This document shows positions 5,371 to 64,000 of a DNA stretch of 64,000 nucleotides, piece by piece. Under the pieces are notes generated by a model, which saw only the letters and a program-made list of their open reading frames with translations, did not search any database and was not told the DNA's origin. This stretch comes from Mactra quadrangularis. Lineage: Eukaryota > Mollusca > Bivalvia > Venerida > Mactridae. Both the position numbers and the translations under genes were made by a program. The stretch spans positions 39,879,380 to 39,943,379 of the forward strand of contig CM046303.1 of assembly GCA_025267735.1 (NCBI GenBank), written 5' to 3'. Each line of letters starts with the position of its first letter. The stretch's first letter is position 1.

Positions 5371-5496
5371 TTATTTATCAGGTTCCAATTGACATAATAC
5401 AGCATTGATTGTATCAGATATTTCATTTCTCATTTCATACAGGAATTGCTTATGTCCAGTATTCAATATATGAACAGATACACCTCCAGTGTATAC
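5371..5496 (-). CDS. Exon 26: last coding exon, TE triad His and stop codon
   Basis: 126 bp including TAA at 5371-5373; residues 1940-1980. GGVSVHILNTGHKQFL aligns with FASN GKVSVHVIEGDHRTLL, so the triad His is kept (His1954) although Ser and Asp are not. The protein ends CQLEPDK, close to the usual FASN end. Acceptor tacatttcag. Confidence 0.93.
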   Translation of the reverse strand, partial: VYTGGVSVHILNTGHKQFLYEMRNEISDTINAVLCQLEPDK

Positions 5497-8400
5497 CTGA
5501 AATGTACAATATATCAAATATCAATATAATGTTCTATCTAGAAAGATGATATAACAACAATTTTCACTTGTCTTTGTTTGTTTTTGTTGGGTTTAACGCC
5601 GTAGCAACACATTATGTAGGATATATAACGGTGGTCAGTCAACCTACTCACTTCTCCTGAAATGGCTAAATCTCTGGATTTAGCGGTTAACCAACTACTA
5701 AGCGCAAACTTTTGTCAGTGACTGACAACTGCCCTACATAATAAAAAATCATTGGTAGGAGGGAGAATGGCTGTAGAAATAATTTCATGACCAAGCTCCA
5801 CAAAAGTATGCCCTGCCCAGGAATCAAACCCACAACCCCTCGATCAGTAGACTTGTGTGCTTCCAACTGAGCTAGCCGAGCGGCTTTCACTAATCTAAAT
5901 AATGGTTTTTTTCACAATAAATATTTCAATTATATTAATCACACATTTCAAAATTAAAGTGAATATCAAAATCAACTCCCTTAAGGTTCATGTAAAGTCT
6001 TGGTTAAGTGCAAAATATTAGTAAAAAAAATAGCTCTAGTTCTGTCCTATTTCCACCAACACCATTGTTTTATATATCAAACTGTATCTTATGAAACATA
6101 CAAAGTGATGCTAGTCATTAATTACAACAAACTATTTAACAAAAGAAGCATTTGCAAAATTGATGTTGCATAAAAAAATACTAAATTATAATATCAAAAT
6201 TTTCTTGCTACAAAATTTAACATTAAATCCTTTACAGAACATTATAGTACATATTCCAATGAAGGTACTGCAATATTTATAACCTCAATCAAAATTAAAA
6301 GAATGTCATTTTAAAGGTAATGATACAAACCTTAGATAAGAAGTAGTCACTTGGTGTTTTGACATCTTTTGGACGACCTCTACCTCTGATCAATGTCATC
6401 TTACCCTTATATTTACTACATGGTTTGTAGTCACCAACTAACATGTATGTGATGACATAATGTAGAATCTTTGAGTTGAGCTCACTGAGTGATAAACTAT
6501 TAGATTTCTTCTCAGATCTCAACCAATGAAATACATGAGGGGCAAGTGAGGCAACTTTCTCTTTCAACGTTAGTTCTTCACTTTCAAATACCTCCAAAAT
6601 CTAAAACAAAACAGAGAATAGTACAGAATGTGCAATATGTTTGTTACAGATAATCACTAAGCAACAATCAAACTATTCATATTAAATGCTCTCACTGTAA
6701 GGAGAGCTTACAATGAAATATGGAGCTTATATACATATGTGAACCATAAGGCCATGCCAAATGGGAATTCTGTTAAGCGTCAACTCAAATTTGACAAACC
6801 TAGGTGCCTATTCACAAAAACACAACCGAAATCGAAAACACAAATATTTTTTACGACAAAAAGATGCATTTTATATTGTTTTTAATAGAATAACATCCAA
6901 TAACAATATTAATGACGTGGTTATGATAAATTGCTAACGTTGAATAACACGTTGCTGAACACAATTTTCCTGAATTAAATTGTCGTATTGAATCCCGGAA
7001 CATCGGAATTATTTAAGAAAAAATTTTACCAACAATTTTGTTTTTTATTTTGACTGAGGACTCCAAAACCTACGCGCACGCAGACACTTAACAAAATTCC
7101 GATATGGCATGGCCTAATTAAAGACCTGAAATAGCACTTACAAATGACAAGAGCTCTGCTGGGCAGGACATATGACATACATATACCTTTATGGCACATA
7201 CCTGTCAAGGATTGCAAGAGTCAAAGAGTGCGGATTGGATTCCTAGGGGCAGTTGCCCCTGGCAGGGGAACTCTCTCAGCAGAAGCTAACAGTGTATTAC
7301 TTTATTGATGATTTTCTTGAAAATATGATTAAAATCATTGCATATTGAGCTGACAACAAACATGTATATTTTTGCATAACATTTATGGCATCAGTTTCAC
7401 TGCATCCTTGCAGCAAGTGACAACACTCTCAAATCTTCAAGATTAACAAGAAGAGTTAGCATTCATTACTCACAGCAAGAAGTTACACAAGATTGTTTAT
7501 GTCAGTAATAATGAAGATCAAACCATTATAACAAAAATAGTACAAATTAAAAAAAAAAATTTAATATCTATGAATTTGAATAAGAAGTTTGATTCTGTGT
7601 GTAAGAAAGTGATTTTTGTTCTAAATGACACTATGAGTTTCAGGCTGAATGCGCGAGACTTGACATGTATGAAGACATTGACTCCAAAGCAATAGAATTG
7701 TTTATAAGAAACAACCAATAATATTTAGTTAATGAAGGAAAAAATATTGTAAATTTATCATTTGAAATGTTTTGTTCTGTTTACAAATCAAGACGAGTCA
7801 ACCTTTGAGGCATGGGCCCCACACTTAATGAGGTTTGCTTGTTCCCTCCAACCTTTTTCTAACAAAATCCCTGTAACAATGTGTTGTGGACTAACACTGA
7901 ATTTACAATGAAATATTACCATAAATGTATACAGTGTGATATCTTACCTGAGTAGTTACATGATCAGAGATATGTGTATACAAATCTATGTAAGTTAACA
8001 AAGCTTCAACTTCTTTATCTACCTCATCTTGTTTTGTATACATATCTTGATAGTAACAGATCTCATCATTCAATGCTACATACTTCATAGATCCTTCTAT
8101 ACAGACAATATGTTTGATAACATCCAAATCAAAGGATTGTAGTTGTAGAGCCATTTCTATAGCAACAGCACATGCCATCTTGTGTCCAATCAGAACAAAT
8201 GCTTCTAAATTGTTATTCAGGAACAATTGCTGTAAGTGGAGGAAACATTTTATGTTTATACAAAGACTGTAAGTACTGTATGCTTATTCCTCATTGCTAG
8301 GATACCAAATTCACATGATATCTGAGGGCAATACCTTACAAAGATTTGTTTATTAAAAAAGTTAAAGAAAATGGCAAGAACCAAAAAATAAGGATGAAAA

Positions 8401-56400: not shown

Positions 56401-59400
56401 TTAAATTTTTCGATTCCTATAGACAGCTCATAGTGAACTTTTCCAAAATAAATAGCAACAGCCTTCCATACCATGACAACATACAGAGCAACAGGTATAG
56501 TTACTATACCATTGATCATGTGACCCAGCAACTCTTTGTCTTTACCATGTAACGCCGTATCAAATAGGAAACTAGAGTCACTCCATTGCCCATGACTACC
56601 TCCCAAACAATCTTCTGGTTCCGGGACATGCCATGATTTAGAATGATCCCATTCAACCAATGAAGATAAACTAGGAGTTCCTCTAGGAACTGGGAAATTC
56701 ACTTTTGGGAAAATACCCAATGGATAAAAAGTCATGCCTTCCAAGTAACATCTAAAAGAGAAAAATACAAACAATGTACAGCCACATTGGGAGCCTTTTT
56801 TACATAGAAAATAAATACACAGCAATTTTTAATTGACTCTACCATGTCAGTGTAAAACATAGCATAAAGGCACAGGGAATGAATGATTGTTAGTATACTT
56901 CTGACAACAAGAGCAGTCCAAGGACAGTGCGCTCGACTTTTTGGGTGTTTTGTTCATGGCAAGGCTTATCTTAAAACAAAAGTAATTTCAAGCCAGGACA
57001 TAATTTTTGAAAGGATATAATTCAGTCAAACAATAATTACCAATTCATATTTGTAAAATGTAAAAGGGTCATTACTCCTAAAACATTCATCCATAGTAAC
57101 GTCCCTTCAGAGTAAAGTAGACGTAGTATCAACGAATAAGCATACCTACTTTTATTTATATATCTATATGAAGAACTACAAATACATTGTATTTCAATTT
57201 CAACAAAATTCAAAATTAAAGTAAAGGGGCATAACTTAAAAAACATCAAGAGTTATGTCCCTTTGTAGTCGCGTAGAAATAGTACTGATGAATAAGCATA
57301 CTAACTATCATTTAAAATACTTTCTCCCGAATTAAAAAGTTGAAAAGGGTCACAACTCCAACAATAATTCATCAATAATTACGTCCCATTGTATTCGACT
57401 AGATGTACGTAGTACTGATGAAAAAGTATACTAACTTTCTATCAAACAAAATATATTCAATTTGAGCTAACATAAGCCTTAAACATCAAAAGTAGAAAGG
57501 GGAATGACTCGGAAAGTAATTAATCCAGAGTTATGCCCAATTATAGTCCGATAGATGAAGAACTGACGAATAAGCATTCCAACTTTCATTCAAATATATT
57601 CATAAGTTCTAAATATATCCCATTATAACAAATTTTAATCTTAAATGTTAAAGTTTAAAGGGACATAACTCCAAAAATAATTCATCCACAGTAATGTCCC
57701 TTTATAGTTGTGTGATATAGTACCGATAATTAAGTATACAAATTTAAAGTCAAATATCTTGATTAGTATTAAAGATATTACATATAGAAACAAGTTTAAC
57801 ATTATATTTTGCATTTTTTTTAGTATAAAAGGGCAATTATTCCAAAAATAATTCATCCACAGTTACATCCCTTCATAGTCGGGTAGATATAGTACCGATA
57901 AATAAGTATACAAACTTTAAGTCATATATCTTGATCAGTATTGAAGATATTCTACATAGGAAAAACTTTAACCTCATATTTTGCAATTTCTTAAGTATAA
58001 AAGGGCAATAACTCATAAAATAATTCATCCAGAGTTATCCCTTTCACAGAATGGTTAATATAGTCCCACTTAATAAGTATACCAACTTTGAATAAAATAA
58101 CTTGGATAGTGTTAAAGTTATAAGTGTTTCAAAAAACTTTAACCTGAAAACCAACGCCAACGCCGACGCAAAAGTGATAGCAATAGCTCTCATTTTCTTC
58201 GAAAAGTCGAGCTAAAAAAGTACAAAATACAAATGTACAATGAAACCCATTAACAATGACCACTCAGGGAAAACTGGAAAGAGAACATTCTAGACAGAAC
58301 CCTTGACAGTAATTTAAGATTATTTTTAAGTACAGATTATTCTTTAAAAAAAAATGATACGTTTCTTGTATTCAAATGATAAAAAGTTTATACTTTAGAT
58401 TTTTGACATATCTATTCAATCAGTATGGAATCAATGCTTTGACAAATCAAGGACCTGTGTTTCTAGCAAGCTATGGTAATGTTACCAGCAATGTTAAAAA
58501 TTGTGGACTAGCTAGAATACAATCTGATTACAACCCGATCTAAAGTTTTCCCCTTGCCTACTCCCTAATTTAGATCTGGTTGTTTTCTTATGAGGGTCAC
58601 ATTCAGGTGACCTTTTCTCATAATAATAAGGTTCCATGCGAACCTTAGAGATCCTGTACGACAACGCTCTACAGGATATCTGTTTAGGGAGATTGGTTAG
58701 TATACTAACTTTCCAAGACTTGTAAAGAAGAATTCCACATTATCTGGATGATTCTGTCTCATCAATCCAATATGGAATATATTGTCATTTAAAGATTCAT
58801 CACATCTATTTAATAGAGAGTCATCTGGTCCAATCACTAGGATGATACTATCAGCTGGTATCTGTTTTAATCTGTCATGGAACCATACAGGACTTGTTAA
58901 CTTCTTAATATATTCGCTATGTTCTTCTTTACAACTCTGAAAGTATCAGATTTTAGATAAAATTCAATCTTTCCAACTCTTTTTCTTACATAACATTTGT
59001 GTACATAAATATCTACAGGTGCCTACCAGTTTCTGTCATTTTTGAAGCCACATAAGAAAATTGTTGTGCCCCTTACAGAAAGAGCAATAATATTTCAAAG
59101 TTAAAAGTCCCTTCCTGATTTTTTTTGACACTTGACCCTTTTTGTCTTTAGATGACAATATACATCAAGGGTTGCCCGCAAGAATGCAGTAACTCCCTAA
59201 TTAACACAATGCACTTATTAAAGTCTTGCCGGGAAACCATCGAGATGTACATTTTAATTTTAAATACTGTGAAAATATAATATTCTTAAAACAAACCAAG
59301 AAGCGCCGCAATGCGACGAAACCAGGTTTTCAAAGACCAAGTTTTGATGTGACAGGAATGAGAAATGAAAGATGGCAGTGGAGAAAAATGATGCTGTAAT

Positions 59401-62400
59401 TTTGGTTGCATGCAGATTGTGATCTAGTAGAAACCATACAGGTTTAGTACTAAGGATATGGTGAAACACTGCAATAAATAAATGATTAGGAAAAAAGTGG
59501 TTGATGAAACAAATCAATTATAAGGCTTGTTCCTGGTAGCAATCGCAAGCTGCCTCTTGATATAAGCAACCCATACACCAAGTTTATTGTCATAGGTCAA
59601 AGCAAACTAAAGTTATTGAGCGGAAACTGAATTTCTATTTTCAGTGTCAGTGACCTTGACCTTGATCACAGACACCTGGGTAGCAATCCCAAGCTGCCTC
59701 TTGATATAAGCTACCCATACACCAAGTTTGGTGTCAATAGGCCAAAGCAAACTTAAGTTATTGAGCGGAAACCAATAGTTGATGCCCGACCGCCCACCCG
59801 CACACCCGCCGACTTCGGCATTATACAATAACCCTGTTTTCATTGAAAACCTGGTTAATAAATCTAACTGAAGAAGAACATATTAAAATGGCAGTTTTTT
59901 AAATGCATTGTAATAAATTTAAGAGTTTTAAATCAATTGTCACAAGGCATAATTGATTATTAAGTTCTATCTATCATGTTAAAAACTATGATTTATCTAG
60001 AAATAATCATGTCTATTCTTCAAAAGAAATGTTTTAAGCTATGCCTGATGTGTATTGAATGAAGGTGATGATTATTGAAGACATATAAGCATTAAGTCCC
60101 CCATTCACGCACAATATAATTGTCAATAAGTTTGTCAATTATGAAGATTGTCAATGATATTGATAGTAAATGGGTGGTACTGAAGGCCCTGTTAATGTAT
60201 TGATGAACATTGGAGAGCTCAAATATTTATTGACATATTGACAATTTTATTGATGAGTATTTTGCACATCTCAATAAAATTGAGTCAATATTCATTATTG
60301 TCGAAATTTTTTAGGCATAAACATGGCAAAATCAACAAAATATAAGAATATAAGAAAGAAAATTTAAATTGGTAGTCATTGACGTATATAGAGAGCTTCC
60401 TGCACTCTGGAAAGTTACTTGCCACAATTATAGTAATCGCGGGAAGAAGGAGGATGCTTACAATACATTACTTGAAAAGTATAGGGAGCGATAGTTCATT
60501 CAGCAACTTTACATGACCAAACTGATACTTTATCTAAAACCACCATATCGAGGGTTTAGCGCAAAATGGTTGTAACTCCCTCTTTTCTTATATTGAGTTA
60601 CGACTGTTTTGTACTAAACCCGCGATATAGTCCAAAATTTCTTCCGTTTTAGCTTTGGTTTATTCAATGCTAGCGCAATGCTGATGAAAACAACAGGATC
60701 CATGCTTTTCCTTTGGTGTCAGAAGTACAAATGAACTAAATATGGGTCAATATTTTTTTAACAGCTGGAGGCAAAAAAATAAACTGTCAGTATTATTGAG
60801 TCAATATTATTGACAATTATATAGTGCGTGAATGAGGGGGGGGCTTTAAGTACAAACCTTTGGAAAATATTTTTTTAATATTGGAGCTACAGCATTAATG
60901 GCTGGGGCATTATATGCTATTCCACCAGTTTTTATCTCAGCTGTGTGTATACCATCTTGTTCAAGTTGTTTAATAAACTCACTAACTTTATCAGTTGGTC
61001 CTGACACTGTTACTGTCTTTGGTGCATTCTGCCATACTGGAACCACTTTGTCAGGACACTGGGTTATAGACTCATCCCAAGATAAACCTTCAAGTAAACC
61101 CAGATTATACTTATTCTTACCAAAGCCAAATAGTATCAACAAAAAAAAAAAAATATGATGCTACATTGTAATAAAGAGATAATAAACTCTTGTTATAAAG
61201 AGTTGATTGTTTGTTTGTTTGTTTAGTTGGGTTTTATGCCATAACAACACATGGTATAGGTCATATAATGCCGGCCAGTCCACCTACTCACAGTTCCTGT
61301 AAAGGCTAAATCTCTGGATTCAGCTGTTAGCTAGCCAACTACTGGGCACAGTAAGACTGACTACTGCCCTACATGATTTAAAATCAGTGGTAGCAGGAAG
61401 AATAACCAAAAAAATTATTTCATGACCCAGCTCCACGAAAATATGCCCCGCCTGGGAAACAAACTTCTGACTCCTCCATGGGTAGTAGACTAGTAGGGCT
61501 GGGCGAGTATCCTAGTACTTGGATATTCGTGATCCCGACCAGAAAATCGAGTATGAATATTCATCACATACCAACATAAAAGACACACTGTCAAAGAATG
61601 GATACGATTAAATAGTTCACCCGGAAAACAACGTGCTCACAGTCATGCTGATACTAAAATATTCAATAAGTGCATACCCACTTCTGCCATTTTACCAGGG
61701 GAGGGGTTCAACTCTTGTATACTAAATCCCTCCCAATATGCAATAACCATGGCTTCTTCTGCTGTTAAACACTTGTTAGCATAACCACAAGCAATTTCAC
61801 CAATCGTGTGACCTACAACCCCATCTGCTTCAATCCCCATTTCCTTCAAAACATCAACTAGAGCTATCTGTGTACAACATAAATGATCAAGATATCAACT
61901 AGTGTTATCTGTGTACAAAATAAATGATCAAGATATCAACTATAGCTATCTGTGTACAAAATAAATGATCAAGATATCAACTAGAGCTATATGTGTACAA
62001 AATAAATGATCAACTAGAGATATCTGTGTACAACATAAATGATAAAGATATCAACTAGAGCTATCTGTGTACAAAATAAATGATCAAGATATCAACTACA
62101 GCTATTTGTGTACAAAATAAATTATCAAGTTAGATATAAACTAGAGCTATCTTTGTACAAAATAATTTTTCAAGTTAGATATAAACTAGAGCTATTTGTG
62201 TACAAAATAAATGATCAAGTTAGATATAAACTAGAGCTATCTGTGTACAAAATAAATGATCAATACATCAACTAGAGCTATCTGTGTACAAAATAAATGA
62301 TCAAGATATCAACTAGAGCTATCTGTGTACAACATAAATGATCAAGATATCAACTAGTGCTATATGTGTACAAAATAAATGATCACGATATCAACTTGAG

Positions 62401-63967
62401 CTATCTGTGTACAACAAAAATGATCAAGATATCAACTAGAGCTATCTGTGTACAACATAAATGATCAAGATATAAACTAGAGCTATCTGTGTACAAAATA
62501 AATTATCAAGAAATAAACTAGAGCTATCTGTGTACAAAATAAATGATCATTACATCAAATAGAGTAGATATTAGATGAGATTGAACCAACGTAAAGCTGG
62601 CTATCCAATGATTACCTGTCCAACATTGTAACCTGTGTACAAAATAAATGATCAATACATCAACTAGAGCTATCTAATGCAAAATAAATTATCAAGATAT
62701 CAACTTGAGCTATCTGTGTACAAAATAAATGATCAACTAGAGATATCTGTGTACAAAATAAATGATCAAGATATAAACTAGACCTATCTGTGTACAAAAT
62801 AAATGATGAATACATAAACTAGACCTATCTGTGTACAAAATAAATGATTAATACATCAATTAGAGATATTTGTGTACAAAATAAATGAATAATACATCAA
62901 CTAGAGATATTTGTGTACAAAATAAATTATCAAGAACCTTGTGCGAAGATTCCTAAGCTATCGAGAAATATCAAATGAAGAGAACAATCAGGGCTCCAAT
63001 TAAACCAAAAAATAGGACATTCAGATCTTATTTGTTAATTTTATTTTGACTTGCAAAATGAAAAAACACTTGCATTTTTTCCATAATTTCCAGACAAATT
63101 TGGTTTGCAATCAACAAGTAAAAAATCACTTACAGACATAGCTGTGACATGTATTAGATAGGTAAAAATCTAGCCTGTGTCATCATTAACACTATAACTT
63201 CCAAGCTTATAACCTGTAGTGATACAGGTAAGTATATAATAATACTTTATTATCAATTTATATGGCATTTTTTAGGCTAACTTGAGCTAGACAGTGATAT
63301 TTTTAAGCAGTTTGCAAATTGAAATTAATTTAAGATATTCAAAATCCACATGCGTTTTTCATCAAGATCCATAAACTACTTTAAACTACTATGAAGCTGT
63401 GAGGTTACAATGTTGGACAGGTAATCATTGGATAGCCAGCTTTACCTTGTTTCAATCTCATCTAAAACCTACCTTGTTGTTTCCTTGAGCAAGAAATTTA
63501 TCATACTAGCCTCGAAAGTGATACATCTAAGTAGTAAGAACATGTTTAAAAATTGAGCTAAAATAAATTAGTACACCATAACTACTATTTTTGCAATTTT
63601 TAATTAAATCAGCATTGCCTCTTGCTGTTTTCAAATGTGGGACCTCTTGCTCCAGTAGGATTTGAATGTGAAACCTAATGCCTAAAATTATTCGTTTGGT
63701 GCTCAAACAAATAAAAGAGCGTTATACCTGAATAGCTGTAGTTATGATGAATAAGTTCAAAGGTCTATCATATGATTTATCTGCTCCTTCTTTGATCAAT
63801 TTATACAAATTAATACCAAATTTCTTCAAAACTTCACTACTCTTCAGTATAGAAGATTTAAAAGAGTCTAGTTTCATCATATTACAAGCCATACCAGGCC
63901 ATTGTGCTCCAATACCACTAAATACAAACCATATCTTCCTAAAACCTTTAGAACCAACTGAACATTT
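5371..63967 (-). CDS. FASN-like: FASN-like multidomain gene (26 exons in window, 5' end outside), catalytically degenerate
   Basis: Seen: 26 exons joined by GT-AG introns with matching phases encode 1,980 residues and a stop. Domain order is AT (1-295), DH (296-590), pseudo-methyltransferase and pseudo-KR (about 590-1040), ER (about 1040-1360), KR (1360-1600), ACP (1600-1660), TE (1700-1980). The length nearly equals the matching part of vertebrate FASN (about 2,020). Known: FASN is a cytosolic homodimer that makes palmitate from acetyl-, malonyl-CoA and NADPH. Odd: catalytic or cofactor residues are missing in AT, ER, KR, ACP and TE, while the reading frame is intact. Only the DH His/Asp pair remains. 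Inference: an expressed pseudo-megasynthase or regulatory paralogue. The alternative, an animal FAS-like polyketide synthase, fits less well because a TE is present and the AT, ACP and KR are dead. The ketosynthase lies past 64000. Confidence 0.95.
5522..5586. repeat. 65-bp direct duplication, copy 2 (last intron)
   Basis: Same 65 bases as 4675-4739, directly in front of a SINE family 2 copy. Confidence 0.9.
5580..5884 (-). repeat. SINE family 2 (tRNA-headed), minus strand
   Basis: The minus strand begins with a tRNA-like promoter (ggctagctcagttgg A box, gggtttgattcctgg B box). The body contains the palindromic tagtcactgac region and ends with a gggtttaacgccgtag-type tail in intron 25. Same family as 14704, 29275, 36930 and 61203. 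Confidence 0.85.
5885..6330. other. Intron 25 remainder
   Basis: AT-rich intron sequence, nothing recognised. Confidence 0.5.
6331..6600 (-). CDS. Exon 25: TE domain lid and core
   Basis: 270 bp, 90 codons, phase 0 at both ends; residues 1850-1939. LEVFESEELTLKEKVASLAP aligns with FASN [35 protein letters not shown] with KYHGNVMLLRAKTGG; SDYFLSK with ADYNLSQ. Acceptor ttttgttttag, donor gtttgta. Confidence 0.93.
6752..7118. mobile_element. MITE-E with about 30-bp TIRs
   Basis: The left end (aaggccatgccaaatgggaa) and right end, read in reverse complement (taggccatgccatatcggaa), match over about 30 bases with a few changes, about 370 bp in all. No ORF; non-autonomous. Confidence 0.7.
7146..7200. 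repeat. Truncated 5' end of a tandem-core element
   Basis: caagagctctgctgggcagg matches the start of the elements at 15246 and 37559. The stem CTGC/GCAG replaces CCGC/GCGG there, a paired change. Confidence 0.5.
7201..7947. other. Intron 24 remainder
   Basis: AT-rich; nothing recognised beyond a short palindrome (ggggcagttgcccc) near 7237. Confidence 0.4.
7948..8229 (-). CDS. Exon 24: TE nucleophile exon with Ser-to-Lys change
   Basis: 282 bp, 94 codons, phase 0 at both ends; residues 1756-1849. FASN YRVAGYSYGACVAFEM is here FVLIGHKMACAVAIEM, so the GxSxG elbow is GHKMA and the nucleophile is Lys1772 (AAG). The triad Asp (LFLFDGSPTYV) is Glu1800 (IVCIEGSMKYV). The rest keeps the FASN helix pattern. 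Acceptor ccacttacag, donor gtaagat. Confidence 0.95.
8230..9157. other. Intron 23, 3' part with a SINE 2 fragment
   Basis: 8618-8724 is the tRNA-like head and part of the body of SINE family 2 (minus strand). 8733-8800 is a reverse-complement relative of the flanks of the element at 11287. The rest is AT-rich. Confidence 0.5.
9158..9400 (+). repeat. SINE family 3 (tRNA-headed)
   Basis: A-box-like agtagcccagtggtaggacg and B-box-like gggttcgaactcc, then a body with caagaaatttacc and acccagttgtaattggg. A decayed minus-strand relative lies at 12783-12955. Confidence 0.75.
9401..10139. other. Intron 23, unassigned
   Basis: AT-rich, no repeat or coding signal recognised. Confidence 0.4.
10140..10630. 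repeat. Degenerate tandem repeat, unit about 145-150 bp
   Basis: Three to four diverged units share the order ccTGTTGACTTTtGGTGTATA, then tgggtaaattat, cAACAACtaCAACT, taagtcatcca, and CAgCaCCcCT. A related single unit occurs near 46320-46520. Confidence 0.6.
10631..11286. other. Intron 23, unassigned, with one full CRE palindrome
   Basis: TGACGTCA at 10773-10780. The rest is AT-rich; the end is the left flank of the next element. Confidence 0.4.
11287..12162. mobile_element. HINE-like tandem-core element, family a
   Basis: Starts tcaagagc with a 5' hairpin (gcaccgc-tag-gcggagc). Arm tatatgcccgaaa (11312-11324) is an exact 13-nt inverse complement of tttcgggcatata (12147-12159) next to the 3' end. 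The core has about five units of about 155 bp holding gtgaccttgacctttgacc and tatgctccggaaactg. Flanks match an uninterrupted relative at 8733-8800 in reverse complement, which supports these ends. Confidence 0.8.
12163..12782. other. Intron 23, unassigned
   Basis: AT-rich sequence without recognised features. Confidence 0.4.
12783..12955 (-). repeat. SINE family 3, decayed copy
   Basis: In reverse complement it carries gcgctcagggat, tcctgggttcaatctcc and the cactgcttatttacttgag body seen at 9158. Confidence 0.6.
12956..14450. other. Intron 23, 5' part; palindrome-rich patch at 13855-13952
   Basis: Mostly AT-rich. 13855-13952 has four forward or inverted copies of a gttacg/cgtaactctag motif. 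13670-14000 has more CpG than its surroundings. No exon found. Confidence 0.4.
14451..14572 (-). CDS. Exon 23: thioesterase (TE) N-terminal segment
   Basis: 122 bp, two bases in, phase 0 out; residues 1715-1755. It lies alone between 5.5 kb and 6.2 kb introns and was found because exons 22 and 24 do not join in phase. VYGICKTNRDIPVQSVQCQA followed by GYIIQ aligns with FASN [20 protein letters not shown] and YYIDCI. Acceptor tatttatacag, donor gtgaagt. Confidence 0.87.
14704..15013 (-). repeat. SINE family 2 copy
   Basis: Full-length relative of the 5580 copy, minus strand: tRNA-like head at 14930-15013, tail near 14704. Confidence 0.85.
15246..17514. mobile_element. HINE-like tandem-core element, family b, copy 1 (2.27 kb)
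   Basis: Starts caagagctccgctgggcgg (hairpin gctccgc-tgg-gcggggc). Arm tatacgcccg (15270-15279) pairs with cgggcgtata (17501-17510), which also closes a 3' hairpin. The core has about 13 units of about 145-155 bp, most with tgaccttgacctttgaccc, followed by a ggacggacagacggac tract. No real ORF; open frames here are translations of the unit. Confidence 0.85.
17515..20108. other. Intron 22 remainder, no gene found
   Basis: AT-rich. 17700-17775 repeats gggagaag several times. 19170-19204 is the inverse complement of 15113-15158 (ccagattataaaaaaactct). 18470-19100 and 19560-19800 hold more CpG than the neighbourhood. No exon or RNA gene recognised. Confidence 0.4.
20109..20304 (-). CDS. Exon 22: ACP last helix, ACP-TE linker and first TE strand
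   Basis: 196 bp; residues 1650-1714. ILTRRELERIC closes the ACP. The linker contains six Asn encoded by an AAC microsatellite (20141-20158). IPVYVIFDE aligns with FASN RPLFLVHPIEG, the first thioesterase strand. Acceptor ttgtttcag, donor gtaaaag. Confidence 0.9.
20141..20158 (-). repeat. Coding AAC microsatellite (poly-Asn)
   Basis: A GTT run on the plus strand encodes six Asn in the ACP-TE linker of exon 22. It is in frame, so length changes by whole units would be tolerated. Confidence 0.85.
20305..20961. other. Intron 21, unassigned
   Basis: One TGACGTCA at 20578-20585; otherwise AT-rich with nothing recognised. Confidence 0.4.
20962..21426. mobile_element. Decayed hAT-like MITE
   Basis: Begins tagggctgtggatcg and ends, in reverse complement, tagggctgctgcaaat. 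Internal gatccgatcc and gatcgggaat motifs. Flanking octamers agree only partly (aataaagt / attaaagc). A similar left end lies at 61497. Confidence 0.5.
21471..21586 (-). CDS. Exon 21: acyl carrier protein (ACP) centre, attachment Ser replaced by Asp
   Basis: 116 bp; residues 1611-1649. FASN LADLGLDSLMSVEVRQTL carries the phosphopantetheine Ser in DSL. The ungapped match is LCGHIFDDGEIEQIRDLL, so DSL has become DDG with Asp1627 (GAT) at the Ser site. NITSQQ then continues into ISILTRRELERI, matching FASN VREVRQLTLRKLQEL. Acceptor aatgttacag, donor gtagagt. Confidence 0.9.
21615..22008. mobile_element. MITE-A, copy 1
   Basis: Ends tatagtcggacaatattaac and, in reverse complement, tatagtctgacaaaattaac form an imperfect TIR of about 35 bp. 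Homologous over its length to 30507-30915. Confidence 0.85.
22058..22235. mobile_element. Tc1/mariner-type MITE
   Basis: TIR cagtgcccaccaaaggtttg against cagtgccaaccagaagtttg, flanked by TA on both sides, total 178 bp. The sequence resembles Tc1-group termini. A second decayed copy is at 48310. Confidence 0.8.
22345..22636 (-). repeat. SINE family 1 copy
   Basis: Minus-strand relative of the 4299 and 54426 copies; head at about 22550-22636, tail near 22345. Confidence 0.8.
22637..23569. other. Intron 20, degenerate repeats
   Basis: 22660-22900 repeats variants of gtcaaacTc and aatatacaatataaaaa at loose spacing. TGACGTCA at 23285-23292 lies beside an inverted tcatgtgtgacgta. No exon found. 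Confidence 0.4.
23570..23770 (-). CDS. Exon 20: KR C-terminal part and KR-ACP linker
   Basis: 201 bp; residues 1544-1610. GLCAGLDGVEKETRLNDAQV and MTVLDNLECLLQQDEHVV align with FASN GLAVQWGAIGDVGI and [20 protein letters not shown]. The conserved QWG after the KR active site is AGL. A Lys-rich linker (SPNKKSKKSG) leads to the first ACP helix (LYETIKKFHAV). Acceptor gttttcacag, donor gtaagat. Confidence 0.9.
23874..24010 (-). repeat. SINE family 1, 3' fragment
   Basis: Carries the gggttaaacgccatgtcaac tail and the acctagctttcctggaccc body of family 1; the tRNA head is missing. Lies in intron 19. Confidence 0.75.
24125..24341 (-). CDS. Exon 19: KR catalytic exon with Lys, Ser and Tyr all replaced
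   Basis: 217 bp; residues 1472-1543. IDEVTRTHCNKTLDWFVV aligns with FASN LDRVTREACPELDYFVV, so register is clear. The catalytic Lys (KYSG) falls on Ser1484. FASN [20 protein letters not shown] becomes MPVTCCNANLNQSAQSFVMK, so the Ser is Pro1510 or Val1511 and the Tyr is Gln1523. QRIIDQRVTAGYQ continues as FASN ERICEKRRHEGLP. Acceptor atatttag, donor gttaggg. Confidence 0.93.
24342..25431. other. Intron 18, unassigned
   Basis: AT-rich. A stretch near 24500-24660 has balanced base composition but no reading frame I recognise. Confidence 0.4.
25432..26402. mobile_element. MITE-D, about 970 bp, with about 36-bp TIRs
   Basis: cactagacgaagacaaaatc at the left and cactaaacgaagacaaaatc in reverse complement at the right, continuing through tttatcatcaatttaa, give about 36 bp with one mismatch. 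A 108-codon open frame inside has no recognisable transposase motif. Confidence 0.8.
26580..26743 (-). CDS. Exon 18: KR domain, middle
   Basis: 164 bp; residues 1417-1471. ERTGYEKRLLQQWYTRGIIV aligns with FASN [20 protein letters not shown], and THGPIGGIFYLPN with QLGPVGGVFNLAV. Acceptor is a long T run ending attag, donor gtaagtt. Confidence 0.93.
27020..27695 (+). mobile_element. 3' remnant of a LINE-type retroelement
   Basis: The plus strand encodes GRLKLTWDDLVELDQLKL, like the GRPxxxWxDxVxxDLxxLG end of many LINE reverse-transcriptase ORFs, then frame decay and a short gatgatgatgatt tail. The 5' limit is uncertain. The tail ends about 10 bp from the donor of exon 17. Confidence 0.5.
27701..27872 (-). 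CDS. Exon 17: ketoreductase (KR) Rossmann start, glycine motif lost
   Basis: 172 bp; residues 1360-1416. FASN [20 protein letters not shown] is here CYIIVNGMNHFGLLMADWLI, so the NADPH-binding GGLGGFG is NGMNHFG (1389-1395). VQKLVLTSRSG is ATKLILTSSC, so the Arg that binds the NADPH 2'-phosphate is Ser1415. Acceptor aactatatag, donor gtaggtt; a LINE 3' tail ends about 10 bp into the intron. Confidence 0.93.
28223..28488. mobile_element. MITE-B, copy 1
   Basis: TIR aggtcctatcagttggaat against aggtcccatcagttggatt; 266 bp. Homologous to 35968-36215. Lies in intron 16. Confidence 0.75.
28489..29036. other. Intron 16, unassigned
   Basis: AT-rich sequence, nothing recognised. Confidence 0.4.
29037..29248 (-). 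CDS. Exon 16: ER domain C-terminal part
   Basis: 212 bp, two bases in, phase 0 out; residues 1289-1359. LISQGLKLSHIKPLTSTVYD aligns with FASN VQAGIRDGVVRPLKCTVFHG; LEMAYSHKLV with VEDAFRYMAQ. The Lys-rich GKVVVQ end of FASN is DHNITIK. Acceptor ctttatttcag, donor gtaaaca. Confidence 0.9.
29275..29592 (-). repeat. SINE family 2 copy with (gttt)n tail
   Basis: Minus-strand tRNA-like head at about 29520-29592; the far end is a tgtttgtttgtttg run at 29275-29300. Confidence 0.85.
29701..29998. mobile_element. Short HINE-like element without tandem core
   Basis: 5' hairpin tgagc-taat-gctca (29704-29717). Arm tacccccgct (29725-29734) is nearly inverse-complementary to agcgggcgta (29983-29992). Ends with a ggacggacgc tract and a 3' hairpin before tata. 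Confidence 0.6.
30300..30416 (-). CDS. Exon 15: ER domain, GVDLVLNSL segment
   Basis: 117 bp, two bases in and one base out; residues 1250-1288. GVDIILNSCKDTTLVTSHLL with KPGGHLINI matches FASN GVDLVLNSLAEEKLQASVRC and LATHGRFLEI. A donor 11 bases earlier (CAG|gtttac) is plausible but puts exon 16 out of frame; ACATTAG|gtattg keeps the phase. Confidence 0.85.
30507..30915. mobile_element. MITE-A, copy 2
   Basis: TIR tatagtccgacagtattaac against tatagtgcgacaatattaac, continuing through cctgagcttga. Internal sequence parallels 21615-22008. Confidence 0.85.
31285..31594. repeat. Minisatellite, 32-bp unit, about nine copies
   Basis: Unit tgtggcaaagattgcctagg plus tttctgttatca. Each unit holds the small inverted repeat ggcaa-aga-ttgcc. 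The array stops abruptly inside a unit where the next element begins. Confidence 0.9.
31595..34779. mobile_element. 3.2-kb TIR element inserted in a minisatellite
   Basis: catatccaactatttgtcct at the left and catatccaactattagtcct in reverse complement at the right. The flanking minisatellite halves (ttctg and ttatca) rejoin exactly into one unit, with no target duplication. No long ORF; a HINE-like element (32142-32924) is nested inside. Confidence 0.75.
32142..32924. mobile_element. HINE-like tandem-core element, family c, copy 1
   Basis: Starts caagagctgtcagaggagac (hairpin gctgtc/gacagc). Arm gctcgactt (32167-32175) pairs with aagtcgagc (32909-32917). The core has four units of about 165 bp (cacatgagatgtggttgata and so on), then a ggacgcggacgccgacgc tract and a 3' hairpin. 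Confidence 0.8.
34780..34965. repeat. Minisatellite, 33-bp unit, about six copies
   Basis: Unit tgtggcaaagtattgcctag plus gtttctgttatca, one base longer than the units at 31285. It is the other half of the array split by the 31595-34779 element. Confidence 0.9.
34966..35693. other. Intron 14, unassigned
   Basis: AT-rich. A 22-bp stretch is duplicated in tandem at about 35570-35610 (ttagataggttatgtaact). Otherwise nothing. Confidence 0.4.
35694..35889 (-). CDS. Exon 14: ER nucleotide-binding core, glycine motif lost
   Basis: 196 bp; residues 1185-1249. FASN binds NADPH through TLLIHSGSGGVGQAAIAIA. The matching segment here is SILITGDTNISKATVAIA (1185-1202), so SGSGGVG has become TGDTNIS, with no GGVG. 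The surrounding strand-helix pattern (VAIASEHCSQVFVSY) is kept. Acceptor tttaatctag, donor gtatgta. Confidence 0.92.
35968..36215. mobile_element. MITE-B, copy 2, left end decayed
   Basis: Shares gacattgaaaagtaagggta and the right TIR (ccaactgattggacctacct) with 28223-28488; the left TIR is barely visible. Confidence 0.65.
36320..36466 (-). CDS. Exon 13: ER domain, AYYAL helix
   Basis: 147 bp, exactly 49 codons; residues 1136-1184. WTLPDWLSMEDASVLLRVYL followed by LAYYALFV aligns with FASN [20 protein letters not shown] and TAYYALVV. Acceptor taatttcag, donor gtacaca. Confidence 0.92.
36467..36929. other. Intron 12, unassigned
   Basis: AT-rich intron sequence, nothing recognised. Confidence 0.4.
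36930..37235 (-). repeat. SINE family 2 copy
   Basis: Minus-strand copy with head ggctagctcagtcagtagtg near 37205-37235 and tail at about 36940. Confidence 0.85.
37381..37502 (-). CDS. Exon 12: ER domain, GMEFSG segment
   Basis: 122 bp; residues 1095-1135, phase 0 out. RLGLGFSGYDDGGSKILGIS aligns with FASN [20 protein letters not shown]. Acceptor tatattttag, donor gtaagtc. Introns of 7.2 kb upstream and 0.9 kb downstream are filled with repeats. Confidence 0.9.
37559..40627. mobile_element. HINE-like tandem-core element, family b, copy 2 (3.07 kb)
   Basis: Same 5' end, arms (tatacgcccg 37583-37592; cgggcgtata 40614-40623) and 3' hairpin as 15246-17514, with more core units (about 18). Many blocks are nearly identical between copies, including a ttgtttgccattttgacttt insert that recurs at intervals. 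Confidence 0.88.
40915..44634. mobile_element. 3.7-kb TIR element with reiterated CCGCCATCTT motifs
   Basis: TIR aaaaaagtatcaccctcaaa (40915-40934) against aaaaaagtatcatcctcaaa (reverse complement of 44615-44634), with weaker similarity further in. CCGCCATCTT occurs six times at 43604-44293. Near the left end the opposite orientation appears (aagatggcgacc and several aaaatggcgg). No long ORF. Confidence 0.7.
42001..42069. mobile_element. Mini hairpin element (69 bp)
   Basis: cgagggttgcccgcaaga and tcttgctggcaaccctcg are inverse complements with one mismatch. The same unit, more decayed, is at 59164-59243. Confidence 0.65.
44751..44921 (-). CDS. Exon 11: start of enoylreductase (ER) domain, degenerate
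   Basis: 171 bp; residues 1038-1094. CVSVKGIGSP and the following VAKPES correspond to FASN AFVSTLTRGDLSSIRWVCSS. The hallmark ER segment YYASLNFRDIMLATG is here KYCTLTNVGVAHTYG, so the conserved NFRD has become NVGV. Acceptor tgctccatag, donor gtatgtt. Confidence 0.88.
44922..48101. other. Intron 10 with SINE 2 fragment and degenerate repeats
   Basis: 45718-45935 is a plus-orientation SINE family 2 fragment. 46320-46600 resembles the repeat at 10140 and includes TGACGTCA at 46576-46583. 46840-47040 is CpG-richer with no recognised content. The rest is AT-rich. Confidence 0.45.
48102..48253 (-). CDS. Exon 10: pseudo-KR C-terminal part
   Basis: 152 bp, one base in and one base out; residues 987-1037. 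SNIYKNGEWGRYHHLPI aligns with the invariant FASN segment MNVYRDGAWGAFRHFLL that precedes the ER. The acceptor has a long pyrimidine run ending ttcag; donor gtataat. Confidence 0.92.
48310..48676. mobile_element. Tc1/mariner-type MITE, decayed
   Basis: Left cagtaccctccaaaagtttg and, in reverse complement, right end with ttcagaccaaaagtttgaag, flanked by TA. Related to 22058-22235 but longer. Confidence 0.65.
48786..49078 (-). repeat. SINE family 1, decayed copy
   Basis: Contains acctagctttctggaccttt and taccagtactcc of the family 1 body; the tRNA head near 49078 is eroded. Confidence 0.65.
49433..50705 (-). CDS. Exon 9: long exon for DH tail, pseudo-methyltransferase and first part of pseudo-KR
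   Basis: 1,273 bp, about four times larger than most other exons; residues 563-986. DTDVQEIKSGGVSIVG closes the DH. LKNLRILDISVCKDSDLLAL takes the place of FASN KVLEVLAG, with no glycine-rich SAM motif. The segment ISLIDEDSWNKLF to LFLLRKQ aligns with FASN GILSQDAWESLF to LFLCRR. The end (DWFGNLSKKMESW, VVCLTGDSTYGTMDLIPKIP) is the pseudo-KR. FASN's own methyltransferase and first KR are also inactive, so decay here is expected. Acceptor ttatttcag, donor gttatat. Confidence 0.95.
50706..51654. other. Intron 8, 3' part
   Basis: AT-rich sequence, no repeat or coding signal recognised. Confidence 0.4.
51655..53352. repeat. Tandem-core element, about 158-bp unit, about 10 copies
   Basis: Unit holds aagggccataactctgag, ctgaccggaacaagctgacg, cccataaagtttcgttgaat and ccagtagttgcagagaa. 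The first units are diverged and the last nearly identical. It ends with a (ggac)n tract and the 3' hairpin tatccccc/gggggata before a T/A run. A 5' terminus like the other families was not found. Confidence 0.85.
53358..53622. mobile_element. HINE-like element, family c, copy 2 (short)
   Basis: Starts caagagctgtcagaggagac as at 32142, holds one core unit, and ends ggtcgagctaaaa (53609-53621). It starts 5 bp after the previous array ends. Confidence 0.75.
53747..53995 (+). repeat. SINE family 4 with Leu/Ser-tRNA-like head
   Basis: A-box-like tggccgagcggtaac and B-box-like ggttcaatccc, then a body with gtttcccagaacaagaaact and aagtgataaatctaagt. A 5'-eroded relative is at 63390-63590. Confidence 0.65.
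54223..54396 (-). CDS. Exon 8: DH C-terminal half with catalytic Asp
   Basis: 174 bp; residues 505-562. GNNGHLEWTGDWITYLDGMIQ aligns with FASN [21 protein letters not shown], and the catalytic Asp is kept as Asp521, pairing with His373 of exon 5. VHLPYEIKSIMICPNQHR matches LYLPTRVTAIHIDPATHR. Acceptor atacttacag, donor gtaacca. Confidence 0.93.
54426..54716 (+). repeat. SINE family 1, best-preserved copy
   Basis: tRNA-like head (gcgcagttggtagcgcgcc, ggttcgaatccc), body with acaagggtccaggaaagcta, and tail taaaaataaaaataaataaa. Lies in intron 7, plus strand, opposite to the host gene. Confidence 0.85.
55027..55117 (-). CDS. Exon 7: DH domain, GYDYGP-loop equivalent
   Basis: 91 bp, phase 0 in, one base out; residues 475-504. 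DIYFKFETRGHNYCGKYRSL aligns with FASN AEVYKELRLRGYDYGPHFQGI. The YGP loop lining the DH tunnel is NYCGKY, a weakening of an otherwise conserved site. Acceptor tatgtttcag, donor gttagta. Confidence 0.9.
55339..55490 (-). CDS. Exon 6: DH domain, middle
   Basis: 152 bp: two bases complete Gly424, then phase 0 out; residues 424-474. LLGNFEITTDNELIVSGRVV aligns with FASN AGTFEVSDNGNLVVSGKVY. Acceptor tatatttcag, donor gtaattat. The variable loop here is shorter than in vertebrate FASN. Confidence 0.92.
55491..56368. other. Intron 5, possible hAT remnant at 55536-56020
   Basis: ctaggggtataaaaatatgg near 55537 and catccctac near 56012 could be eroded element ends, with ttgcaatatattgcaatac palindromic sequence just inside. 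No target duplication. Confidence 0.3.
56369..56751 (-). CDS. Exon 5: dehydratase (DH) N-terminal hotdog fold with intact HxxxGxxxxP
   Basis: 383 bp; residues 296-423. NFPVPRGTPSLSSLVEWDHS matches FASN [20 protein letters not shown]. The DH catalytic motif is complete: HMINGIVTIP at 373-382 keeps His373, Gly377 and Pro382. VALYVVMVWKAVA follows as in FASN (TGYLSIVWKTLA). This is the one catalytic motif in the window that is fully preserved. The donor gtacatg follows PETG. Confidence 0.95.
56908..58218. mobile_element. HINE-like tandem-core element, family d
   Basis: Starts caagagcagtccaaggacag (hairpin with gtcc/ggac). Arm gctcgactttt (56931-56941) is an exact 11-nt inverse complement of aaaagtcgagc (58202-58212). 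The core has about seven diverged units of about 160-180 bp (aataattcatccacagt, tatagtaccgat). Ends with acgccaacgccgacgc and a 3' hairpin. Confidence 0.8.
58710..58936 (-). CDS. Exon 4: AT C-terminal part and AT-DH linker
   Basis: 227 bp, phase 0 in, two bases out; residues 221-295. SEYIKKLTSPVWFHDRL aligns with FASN AEYNVNNLVSPVLFQEAL, and MRQNHPDNVEFFFTSLGKL with MKKDHRDNLEFFLAGIGRL. Joining directly to exon 3 is in frame but leaves out about 22 FASN residues (the segment holding RWLSTSIPE). I searched 58937-60857 for a small exon encoding them and found none. Confidence 0.9.
59164..59243. mobile_element. Mini hairpin element, second copy
   Basis: aagggttgcccgcaagaatg and the inverse arm agtcttgccgggaaaccat; same family as 42001-42069. 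Confidence 0.55.
59297..59860. mobile_element. HINE-like element, family e
   Basis: Starts caagaagcgccgcaatgcga (hairpin cgccgc-aat-gcgacg). Arm aaccaggttttcaa (59320-59333) is an exact 14-nt inverse complement of ttgaaaacctggtt (59843-59856). Holds about two core units with gtgaccttgaccttgatc. Confidence 0.75.
60090..60853. mobile_element. MITE-C with about 35-bp TIRs, abutting exon 3 donor
   Basis: cccccattcacgcacaatat at the left and, in reverse complement, ccccctcattcacgcactat at the right, both continuing ataattgtcaata; flanks attaag/tttaag suggest a TTAA-type site. No ORF. The right end is only a few bases from the splice donor at 60857. Confidence 0.8.
60858..61087 (-). CDS. Exon 3: AT domain, catalytic His replaced by Asn
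   Basis: 230 bp; two bases complete Gly144, then 76 codons to Lys220. GLSWDESITQCP matches FASN GLSWEECKQRCP, and TVTVSGP matches TVTISGP. FASN GGMAFHSYFMEAIAP, with the catalytic His, is here GGIAYNAPAINAVAP, so the His is Asn203 (AAT). The acceptor (ttacttgaag) has a poor pyrimidine tract; it was chosen because it restores AEVGLSW in frame. The donor gtttgta is followed within a few bases by a MITE end. Confidence 0.9.
61203..61495 (-). repeat. SINE family 2 copy, head eroded
   Basis: Shares aaggctaaatctctggatt, the gactactgccctacat region and ccagctccacgaaaatatgc with the other copies; tgtttgtttgtttag run at 61207. Lies in intron 2. Confidence 0.8.
61497..61580. mobile_element. hAT-like left end
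   Basis: tagggctgggcgagtatcct followed by ttggatattcgtgatcccga resembles the ends of the 20962-21426 element. No matching right end before exon 2. Confidence 0.4.
61678..61867 (-). CDS. Exon 2: AT nucleophile-elbow exon with Ser-to-Thr and Arg-to-Glu changes
   Basis: 190 bp, phase 0 in, one base out. Residues 81-143. FASN has GHSxGE here; this exon encodes GHTIGE (99-104), codon ACG for Thr101 in place of the nucleophilic Ser. The flanking IACGYANKCLTAEEA is strongly FASN-like. The Arg that binds the malonyl carboxylate (YWRG in FASN, 25 residues after the Ser) is YWEG, Glu126 (GAG). The acceptor tgtacacag abuts a minisatellite that repeats this same junction. Confidence 0.95.
61868..62940. 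repeat. 41-bp minisatellite that iterates the exon 2 splice acceptor, about 25 copies
   Basis: Plus-strand unit gagctatctgtgtacaaaat plus aaatgatcaagatatcaacta. On the minus strand each unit reads a T-rich tract, tgtacacag, then ATAGCTCTAGTTGAT: the acceptor and first 15 bases of exon 2. The array runs directly into the real junction and is interrupted at about 62565-62632. Confidence 0.92.
62941..63727. other. Intron 1 remainder
   Basis: AT-rich; 63390-63590 is a 5'-eroded relative of SINE family 4 (gttggacaggtaatcattgg, caagaaatttatcatactag). Nothing else recognised. Confidence 0.45.
63728..63967 (-). CDS. Exon 1 of window: start of acyltransferase (AT) domain
   Basis: 80 codons, phase 0 at both ends; acceptor ttttcag at 63968-63974, donor gtataac below 63728. 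Residues 1-80. FSGIGAQWPGMA (16-27) matches the FASN AT entry motif FSGMGTQWRGMG, followed by a conserved helix (LDSFKSSILKSSEVLKKFG). It ends in TTAIQ, continued by IALVDVL in the next exon exactly as in FASN. The preceding exons (ketosynthase and linker) are outside the window. Confidence 0.93.
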
Positions 63968-64000
63968 CTGAAAACATGGCAATAAATATGTGAATAATGT

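Follow-up and report, generated by a model that had tools for sequence, protein, structure and literature searches.

A full-length fatty acid synthase paralogue of Mactra quadrangularis that has probably become a pseudoenzyme

Described animal FASN-type proteins

Fatty acid synthase (FASN) is a dimer, and pseudoenzymes are usually single domains. The Smith laboratory is reported to have engineered a FAS heterodimer that works with one dead subunit; this laboratory construct, not a natural protein, provides a precedent for an inactivated subunit supporting a working dimer. The gene family is known, as are FAS-like mollusc paralogues (AFPKs) and partly dead FASN-like proteins.

The mollusc-wide FAS-like group mo-clade 4 was found in all mollusc classes surveyed, yields no antiSMASH domains and is described as having "as yet unknown biochemistry" (PMC10764717). 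In Aedes aegypti, the FAS paralogue AaFAS6 is reported to lack the KS catalytic motifs; it has 1,386 amino acids, contains C-terminal domains only, gave no detectable transcript and is considered a likely pseudogene by its authors (PMC9235097). Loss of the His of HGTGT marks the KS0 domains of type I PKS, which are expected to be non-elongating (PMC4661987). The same His is replaced in two bivalve database proteins, from Mytilus edulis (P0143, 2,359 aa; G) and Tegillarca granosa (P0170, 1,619 aa; C). In both, the Gly-rich nucleotide motif and the Lys of the ER are also replaced, and the KS Cys and AT Ser-Arg-His are retained. P0143 also retains the KR, the ACP Ser and the TE Ser, with the TE Asp changed to Glu, while P0170 stops before the KR. 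P0143 represents a cluster of 18 members (90% identity), which hints that the gene is conserved among mussels. Other partly dead proteins occur in the tardigrade Paramacrobiotus (P0047; DH, ER and KR dead), the wasp Leptopilina heterotoma (P0048; KS His residues, DH His, ER and KR lost) and the moth Dendrolimus (P0241; KS Cys, first His and ER lost). All of these database proteins are named FASN-like or are unnamed.

The gene described here, labelled A, shares domain order, a similar length and 27 of 28 introns with canonical FASN. It differs in its active sites: its intact paralogue B keeps 25 of 25 catalytic positions and the Mactra antiquata protein P0121 has the same motifs, whereas A retains 7. 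Judging from the sequence, with a probability of roughly 0.75, A is an intact FASN paralogue turned into a full-length pseudoenzyme, in which frame, splicing and fold have been selected and chemistry has not. A resembles P0143 and P0170 in the three replacements that they share, and differs in having lost what they keep. Its KS has lost the Cys as well, and KS0 domains sit in active assembly lines (PMC4661987). AaFAS6 is, like A, a FAS paralogue in which KS catalytic motifs are reported missing, but A is full-length and AaFAS6 has C-terminal domains only (PMC9235097). By description, mo-clade 4 proteins resemble A as mollusc FAS-like proteins with few recognisable domains, and A could belong to this group; they are, however, termed enzymes, and section 8 of that paper does not describe catalytic loss across a whole protein (PMC10764717).

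The original prediction held that no animal pseudo-FASN of this kind had been described. This stands for the full-length case: in the literature covered, which took in few subscription papers, no obvious earlier account was found of an animal pseudo-FASN of full length in which six of seven domains are affected by loss. It has to be narrowed in view of the partial losses in the Mytilus, Tegillarca, Leptopilina, Dendrolimus and tardigrade proteins and of the already published mo-clade 4 (PMC10764717).

Gene model and catalytic positions

The window is the whole stretch of DNA analysed, 64,000 nucleotides at C11:39879380-39943379, in a genome of 979 Mb and 447 contigs. Three FASN-type loci were found in this genome: A, in the window, and its paralogues B (C11:31.97-32.00 Mb) and C (C4:18.09-18.12 Mb). 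An active FASN paralogue was sought and found in B, a canonical intact FASN on the same contig as A, 8 Mb away. C lies on a different contig from A and also keeps 25 of 25 catalytic positions; its DH has lost the YGP motif (GQEFQGAF), and it evolves fast. A and B are 30% identical. The closest annotated FASN is that of Mactra antiquata (Mactridae); residues 980-1520 of B (DH end and pseudo-ME) are 85% identical to P0121 and 53-56% identical to Mercenaria and Ruditapes proteins.

In a tblastn search, a human FASN sequence gave successive exon matches on the minus strand in FASN order. Spliced alignment was guided first by human FASN and then by the intact FASN of the same genome, paralogue B. 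The human sequence served as first guide and as an alignment row; the final models rest on B, itself initially traced with the human guide. The structure given in the original prediction was reproduced exactly: 26 coding exons on the minus strand at 5371..63967, bounded by GT-AG introns and in phase, with 5,943 nt that comprise 1,980 codons without a stop and a TAA. These exons, numbered within the whole gene, and one intronic repeat are listed below in window coordinates.

63728..63967, minus strand: exon 9, AT start; 40% to FASN by tblastn; GT-AG, phase 0-0
61846..62935, no strand: minisatellite, 41-bp x 27, in intron 9; the unit copies the exon 10 acceptor and about the first 22 bases of exon 10
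61678..61867, minus strand: exon 10, AT; GHSLGE->GHTIGE (nucleophile S->T), YWRG->YWEG (R->E); tblastn, alignment
60858..61087, minus strand: exon 11, AT; AFHS->AYNA (catalytic His->Asn); tblastn, alignment
58710..58936, minus strand: exon 12, AT end; start shorter than in the intact paralogue, splice phase equal; spliced alignment
56369..56751, minus strand: exon 13, first half of DH; HxxxGxxxxP kept; tblastn, alignment
55339..55490, minus strand: exon 14, DH; its 3' intron is absent in paralogues B and C; spliced alignment
55027..55117, minus strand: exon 15, DH; GYxYGP motif lost (GHNYCGK); alignment
54223..54396, minus strand: exon 16, second half of DH; catalytic Asp kept (YLDGMIQ); spliced alignment
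49433..50705, minus strand: exon 17, pseudo-methyltransferase plus the beginning of the pseudo-KR; a single open exon of 424 codons; spliced alignment, fold
48102..48253, minus strand: exon 18, pseudo-KR; end fixed by conserved intron phase; spliced alignment
44751..44921, minus strand: exon 19, linker between pseudo-KR and ER; similarity weak, start placed from phase and splice signal; spliced alignment
37381..37502, minus strand: exon 20, ER; spliced alignment
36320..36466, minus strand: exon 21, ER; tblastn, spliced alignment
35694..35889, minus strand: exon 22, nucleotide-binding region of ER; GSGGVG->GDTNIS; spliced alignment
30300..30416, minus strand: exon 23, ER; catalytic Lys lost (LEIGKFD->INIDE-EQ); spliced alignment
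29037..29248, minus strand: exon 24, ER end; D of LLDAFF -> E; spliced alignment
27701..27872, minus strand: exon 25, KR; GGLGGFG->NGMNHFG; tblastn, alignment
26580..26743, minus strand: exon 26, KR; tblastn, spliced alignment
24125..24341, minus strand: exon 27, KR active site; Lys, Ser, Tyr and Asn all lost; joint by eye, alignment
23570..23770, minus strand: exon 28, KR end, shortened (QWGAIGDVG region); spliced alignment
21471..21586, minus strand: exon 29, ACP; GLDSLM->IFDDGE, pantetheine Ser lost; spliced alignment
20109..20304, minus strand: exon 30, ACP end, linker and TE start; spliced alignment
14451..14572, minus strand: exon 31, TE; spliced alignment
7948..8229, minus strand: exon 32, TE; GYSYGA->GHKMAC (nucleophile Ser->Lys), LFDG->CIEG; spliced alignment
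6331..6600, minus strand: exon 33, TE; tblastn, spliced alignment
5371..5496, minus strand: exon 34, TE end (His kept) and stop TAA; spliced alignment

The upstream part of A consists of 8 further exons at C11:39944186-39963625 (window-equivalent 64807..84246), which hold the ketosynthase. The whole gene has 34 exons, 7,491 nt, 2,496 amino acids and one terminal TAA, and full-length spliced alignment places the domains in one chain in the order KS-AT-DH-psiME-psiKR-ER-KR-ACP-TE. Every intron is GT-AG, every joint is in phase, and no stops, frameshifts or broken splice sites were found across the 34 exons. The frequency of stop triplets in the introns of A, 0.065, leads to about 163 stops expected in 2,495 random codons, and the open frame is therefore not a product of chance. 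For exon 17 alone, the longest, the probability of 424 open codons at this frequency is about 4e-13.

The start codon is a chosen one, the first ATG following an in-frame stop, and the joints at exons 2, 12, 18/19, 20 and 27 were placed manually with regard to phase. The gene model was picked for openness and contains these manually placed joints, and is consequently biased toward an absence of stops and toward conserved phases. The aligner also suggested short additional exons (0 to 36 nt); these were dropped, the flanking exons joining in phase without them. An earlier joint between exons 18 and 19, the sole phase mismatch with B, gave way to one in phase 1 whose splice signals are good. The earlier joint, which differs by about a dozen residues, underlies the catalytic, constraint and intron counts and the trees, apart from the leave-one-out trees (P0143 or P0170 removed), for which the corrected joint was used.

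Catalytic positions were read from an alignment of A with 173 FASN-type proteins, namely 170 of 252 database proteins (FASN hits of more than 1,500 aa), B, C and the human sequence; the 82 excluded were PKS and other non-FASN proteins (P0049-P0120) and P0243-P0252. The 7 of 25 catalytic or cofactor positions retained by A are the minimum of the 174 aligned rows, and the next lowest count, among rows with at most one gap, is 15. The losses claimed in AT, ER, KR, ACP and TE are all seen in this alignment. The ketosynthase exons beyond position 64000 proved to be dead too, with the second His alone kept out of Cys-His-His (DTACSS->VTGGDIS, EAHGT->ELNTD). In the AT, none of Ser-Arg-His is kept (T, E, N). 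The ER retains one of five positions (nucleotide motif and Lys/Asp), and that one depends on the alignment; the KR retains one of seven (nucleotide motif and Lys-Ser-Tyr-Asn). The phosphopantetheine Ser of the ACP is lost, and the TE keeps only the His of Ser-Asp-His (Ser->Lys, D->E). The claim that nearly all catalytic residues are replaced is right, though not all of them are: the DH has all three of its positions, His, Asp and the P of HxxxGxxxxP, despite the missing YGP motif. Without an ACP serine, a KS cysteine or an AT nucleophile, A is not expected to synthesise anything alone.

At an E value of 0.001, Pfam recognises KS, KS-C, the KS extension, AT, the first half of KR and the FAS pseudo-KR in the full A protein, with no match to DH, ER, ACP or TE. 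The frame of exon 13 alone gives a PKS_DH_N match with an E value of 1.7e-4, under the curated cut-off. For exon 17, a piece of 423 residues aligned with 27 relatives was folded with AF2, resulting in a model with a mean pLDDT of 73 and a pTM of 0.71. Its best 17 PDB matches are EcPKS2 and EcPKS1 (modifying regions or full chains) and human FASN, with E values of 1e-13 to 1e-10 and 15-18% identity. The alignment holds intact relatives, which aids prediction, and the fold consequently counts as support and not as proof.

Coding constraint, placement and alternative readings

Neutral evolution was simulated by letting paralogue B drift to 31% identity in two sets of 10 and 20 runs. The simulated genes contained on average 131 (10 runs) and 136 (20 runs) stops, with a minimum of 115 in both, compared with 0 in A; the view that A is not a dying pseudogene is supported by all 30 simulations. 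The retention of hydrophobic cores was likewise supported. At core columns (at least 95% of references hydrophobic), A is hydrophobic at 530 of 616 (0.86), against a neutral maximum of 0.68 in 20 runs; at polar columns the figure is 158 of 1,053 (0.15), against a neutral minimum of 0.28. Core columns are well kept in KS (98/112), AT (93/103), DH (61/68) and TE (52/56), and less so in ER (82/110) and ACP (16/22); outside its active site, the ACP keeps 1 of 9 invariant columns. Replacements in A are milder than neutral ones (mean BLOSUM -0.36 vs -0.91), and codon usage correlates with that of B at r 0.97, compared with 0.88 for introns.

Conservation was also assessed at the 388 columns whose invariance across 158 reference proteins reaches at least 97%. 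A keeps 5 of 21 catalytic columns, 27 of 66 near active sites and 143 of 301 elsewhere. The contrast between catalytic columns and those elsewhere is modest and the only one that is nominally significant (Fisher p = 0.042); for the whole active-site neighbourhood, i.e., catalytic columns with four residues on either side, the difference from other columns is not significant (p = 0.087). The 27 B introns with a counterpart in A are no more than three alignment columns away from it, and 21 coincide exactly. Intron phases agree in 26 of 27 cases, and the last agrees after the exon 18/19 correction; since a few joints of A were chosen with phase in mind, this line of evidence is not fully independent. 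Six introns of A are without a counterpart at the same place in B and C. Taken together, the stops, core pattern, replacements and codon usage point to coding constraint that lasted for most of the branch, and they are compatible with very recent silencing. Selection would accordingly appear to keep the fold of A and not fatty acid synthesis. This part of the original prediction is supported indirectly, by the stops, core and polar columns, intron phases and the 7 of 25 positions, and the interpretation as a whole only in part.

Trees built from 45 and 29 proteins place A with P0143 of Mytilus edulis and P0170 of Tegillarca granosa (SH-aLRT 100 and 97). In the leave-one-out trees, A joins P0170 alone (SH-aLRT 92) and does not join P0143 alone. 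A probably belongs with these FASN-like proteins, although the placement is uncertain: its branch is of extreme length, at 2.4 to 9.4 changes per column, and a position within heteroconch FASN is only marginally rejected by the AU test (p = 0.0425). Descent from paralogue C was ruled out, the grouping of A with C being rejected (p-AU 0.003), and a retrocopy or recent duplicate was ruled out by 27 shared introns and 30% identity. No orthologue suitably close for dN/dS turned up: none of the 120 listed of 134 matches, nor any of 12 of 12, exceeds 35% identity to the query; this silence says little, as the Mactra antiquata FASN is also missing from those 120. P0143 and P0170 are already without the KS HGTGT His and the ER nucleotide motif, and the loss consequently looks stepwise. 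The ancestor would have been a bivalve FASN paralogue with a non-elongating KS and a dead ER, and AT, KR, ACP and TE would have been lost later on the lineage of A.

A recently silenced, decaying pseudogene that is stop-free by luck would fit the very fast evolution and the loss of most catalytic residues; it is nevertheless very improbable, as at least 115 stops are expected at this divergence under neutrality, and milder replacements, core pattern and codon usage indicate constraint over most of the branch. Even less credence is due to an artefact, i.e., misassembly, a chimeric gene model or contamination. Similarity is weak at some joints (exons 18-20 and 30-31), and the assembly includes two small bacterial-looking contigs, but A lies on one 70-Mb contig with 34 ordered exons and 27 shared introns. 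Genome searches with the AT/DH exons and with exon 17 gave a single near-identical place in each case. There is a slim chance that A is a fast-evolving AFPK with new chemistry on unrecognised residues. The features of mo-clade 4 noted above (PMC10764717) speak for such a protein, whereas the lost pantetheine Ser leaves no recognised covalent carrier, and the KS thiol and TE nucleophile are gone too.

If A is a full-length pseudoenzyme, as preferred here, several roles can be considered. Given expression, it would dimerise via surfaces of the FASN type, and the most plausible partner is an active FASN subunit in the same cell; the putative heterodimer would be regulatory or half-active, a role given somewhat less than an even chance. 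An active partner is favoured because A is not expected to synthesise alone and because the presumed ancestral state, with AT, KR and ACP and no elongation, would be useful mainly next to an elongating partner. The broader proposal, that a natural whole-length dead FASN subunit pairs with active FASN or the second paralogue, controls its output and is the last stage of a bivalve paralogue line in which elongation was lost first and nearly all sites later, is rather unlikely. An acyl/CoA-binding homodimeric scaffold ranks next on the same proviso and is tentative at best. In its general form, this reading is of a non-catalytic homodimer whose relict pockets would bind acyl-CoA, a fatty acid or some other ligand and which would act as carrier, sensor or scaffold with no active FASN partner. 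It is doubtful, though a serious contender: all domains are present in order and the KS, AT, DH and TE cores are kept, while the less well kept ER and ACP cores and the single invariant ACP column count against it, and the pockets are purely putative. Third is a residual enzyme in which only the dehydratase/hydratase survives, acting on acyl-CoA or the acyl-ACP of another synthase. The retained His, Pro and Asp point this way, yet the YGP motif and the protein's own ACP serine are gone and the three DH positions may be structural, which makes this role improbable.

A seven-domain megasynthase of about 2,500 residues thus appears to have been kept whole despite the loss of six of seven functional sites. 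If expressed, A would be a natural test of roles of the FASN scaffold besides catalysis, of dead subunits regulating live dimers and of the way in which active sites disappear successively from a multi-domain enzyme. It may also account for FAS-like mollusc proteins that are opaque to domain predictors.

Related loci and intronic repeats

No second copy of A was found among the best-scoring candidates of genome searches with the KS family, AT-DH and pseudo-ME. The AT-DH search with A gave 20 matches, of which 15 fall within A, B and C and the other 5 within PKS-like loci; the pseudo-ME search (exon 17) gave 3, located in A, B and C. The search with the KS profile yielded 33 matches, of which loci L001-L008 were read and C8, C143 and several C16 matches were left out. 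Besides B and C, these loci appear to comprise PKS-like genes (L005, L007, L008), a mitochondrial-type KS (L002) and bacterial-looking KS (L001, L003). The last two lie on small contigs (C96 and C145), each with a FabF-like ketosynthase in one open frame, and probably represent contamination or symbionts. The five PKS-like loci, at C7:30.99 Mb (L033), C14:17.647 Mb and C16:5.49, 5.57 and 27.5 Mb, have AT matches within open frames of 1,790 to 2,414 codons. At C16:5331794-5355794 (partly covered by L026), three minus-strand fragments about 10-14 kb apart match only the first ~33 residues of the KS profile and could be gene remnants.

Tandem repeats occur in the introns of A. The minisatellite in intron 9 places many degenerate copies of a 3' splice site in tandem ahead of the real exon 10 acceptor. 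One 145/290-bp repeat family forms two intronic clusters 22 kb apart (15959-17439 and 38421-40544); further arrays have a 145-bp period (11430-12139) and nine units of 168 bp (51751-53260).
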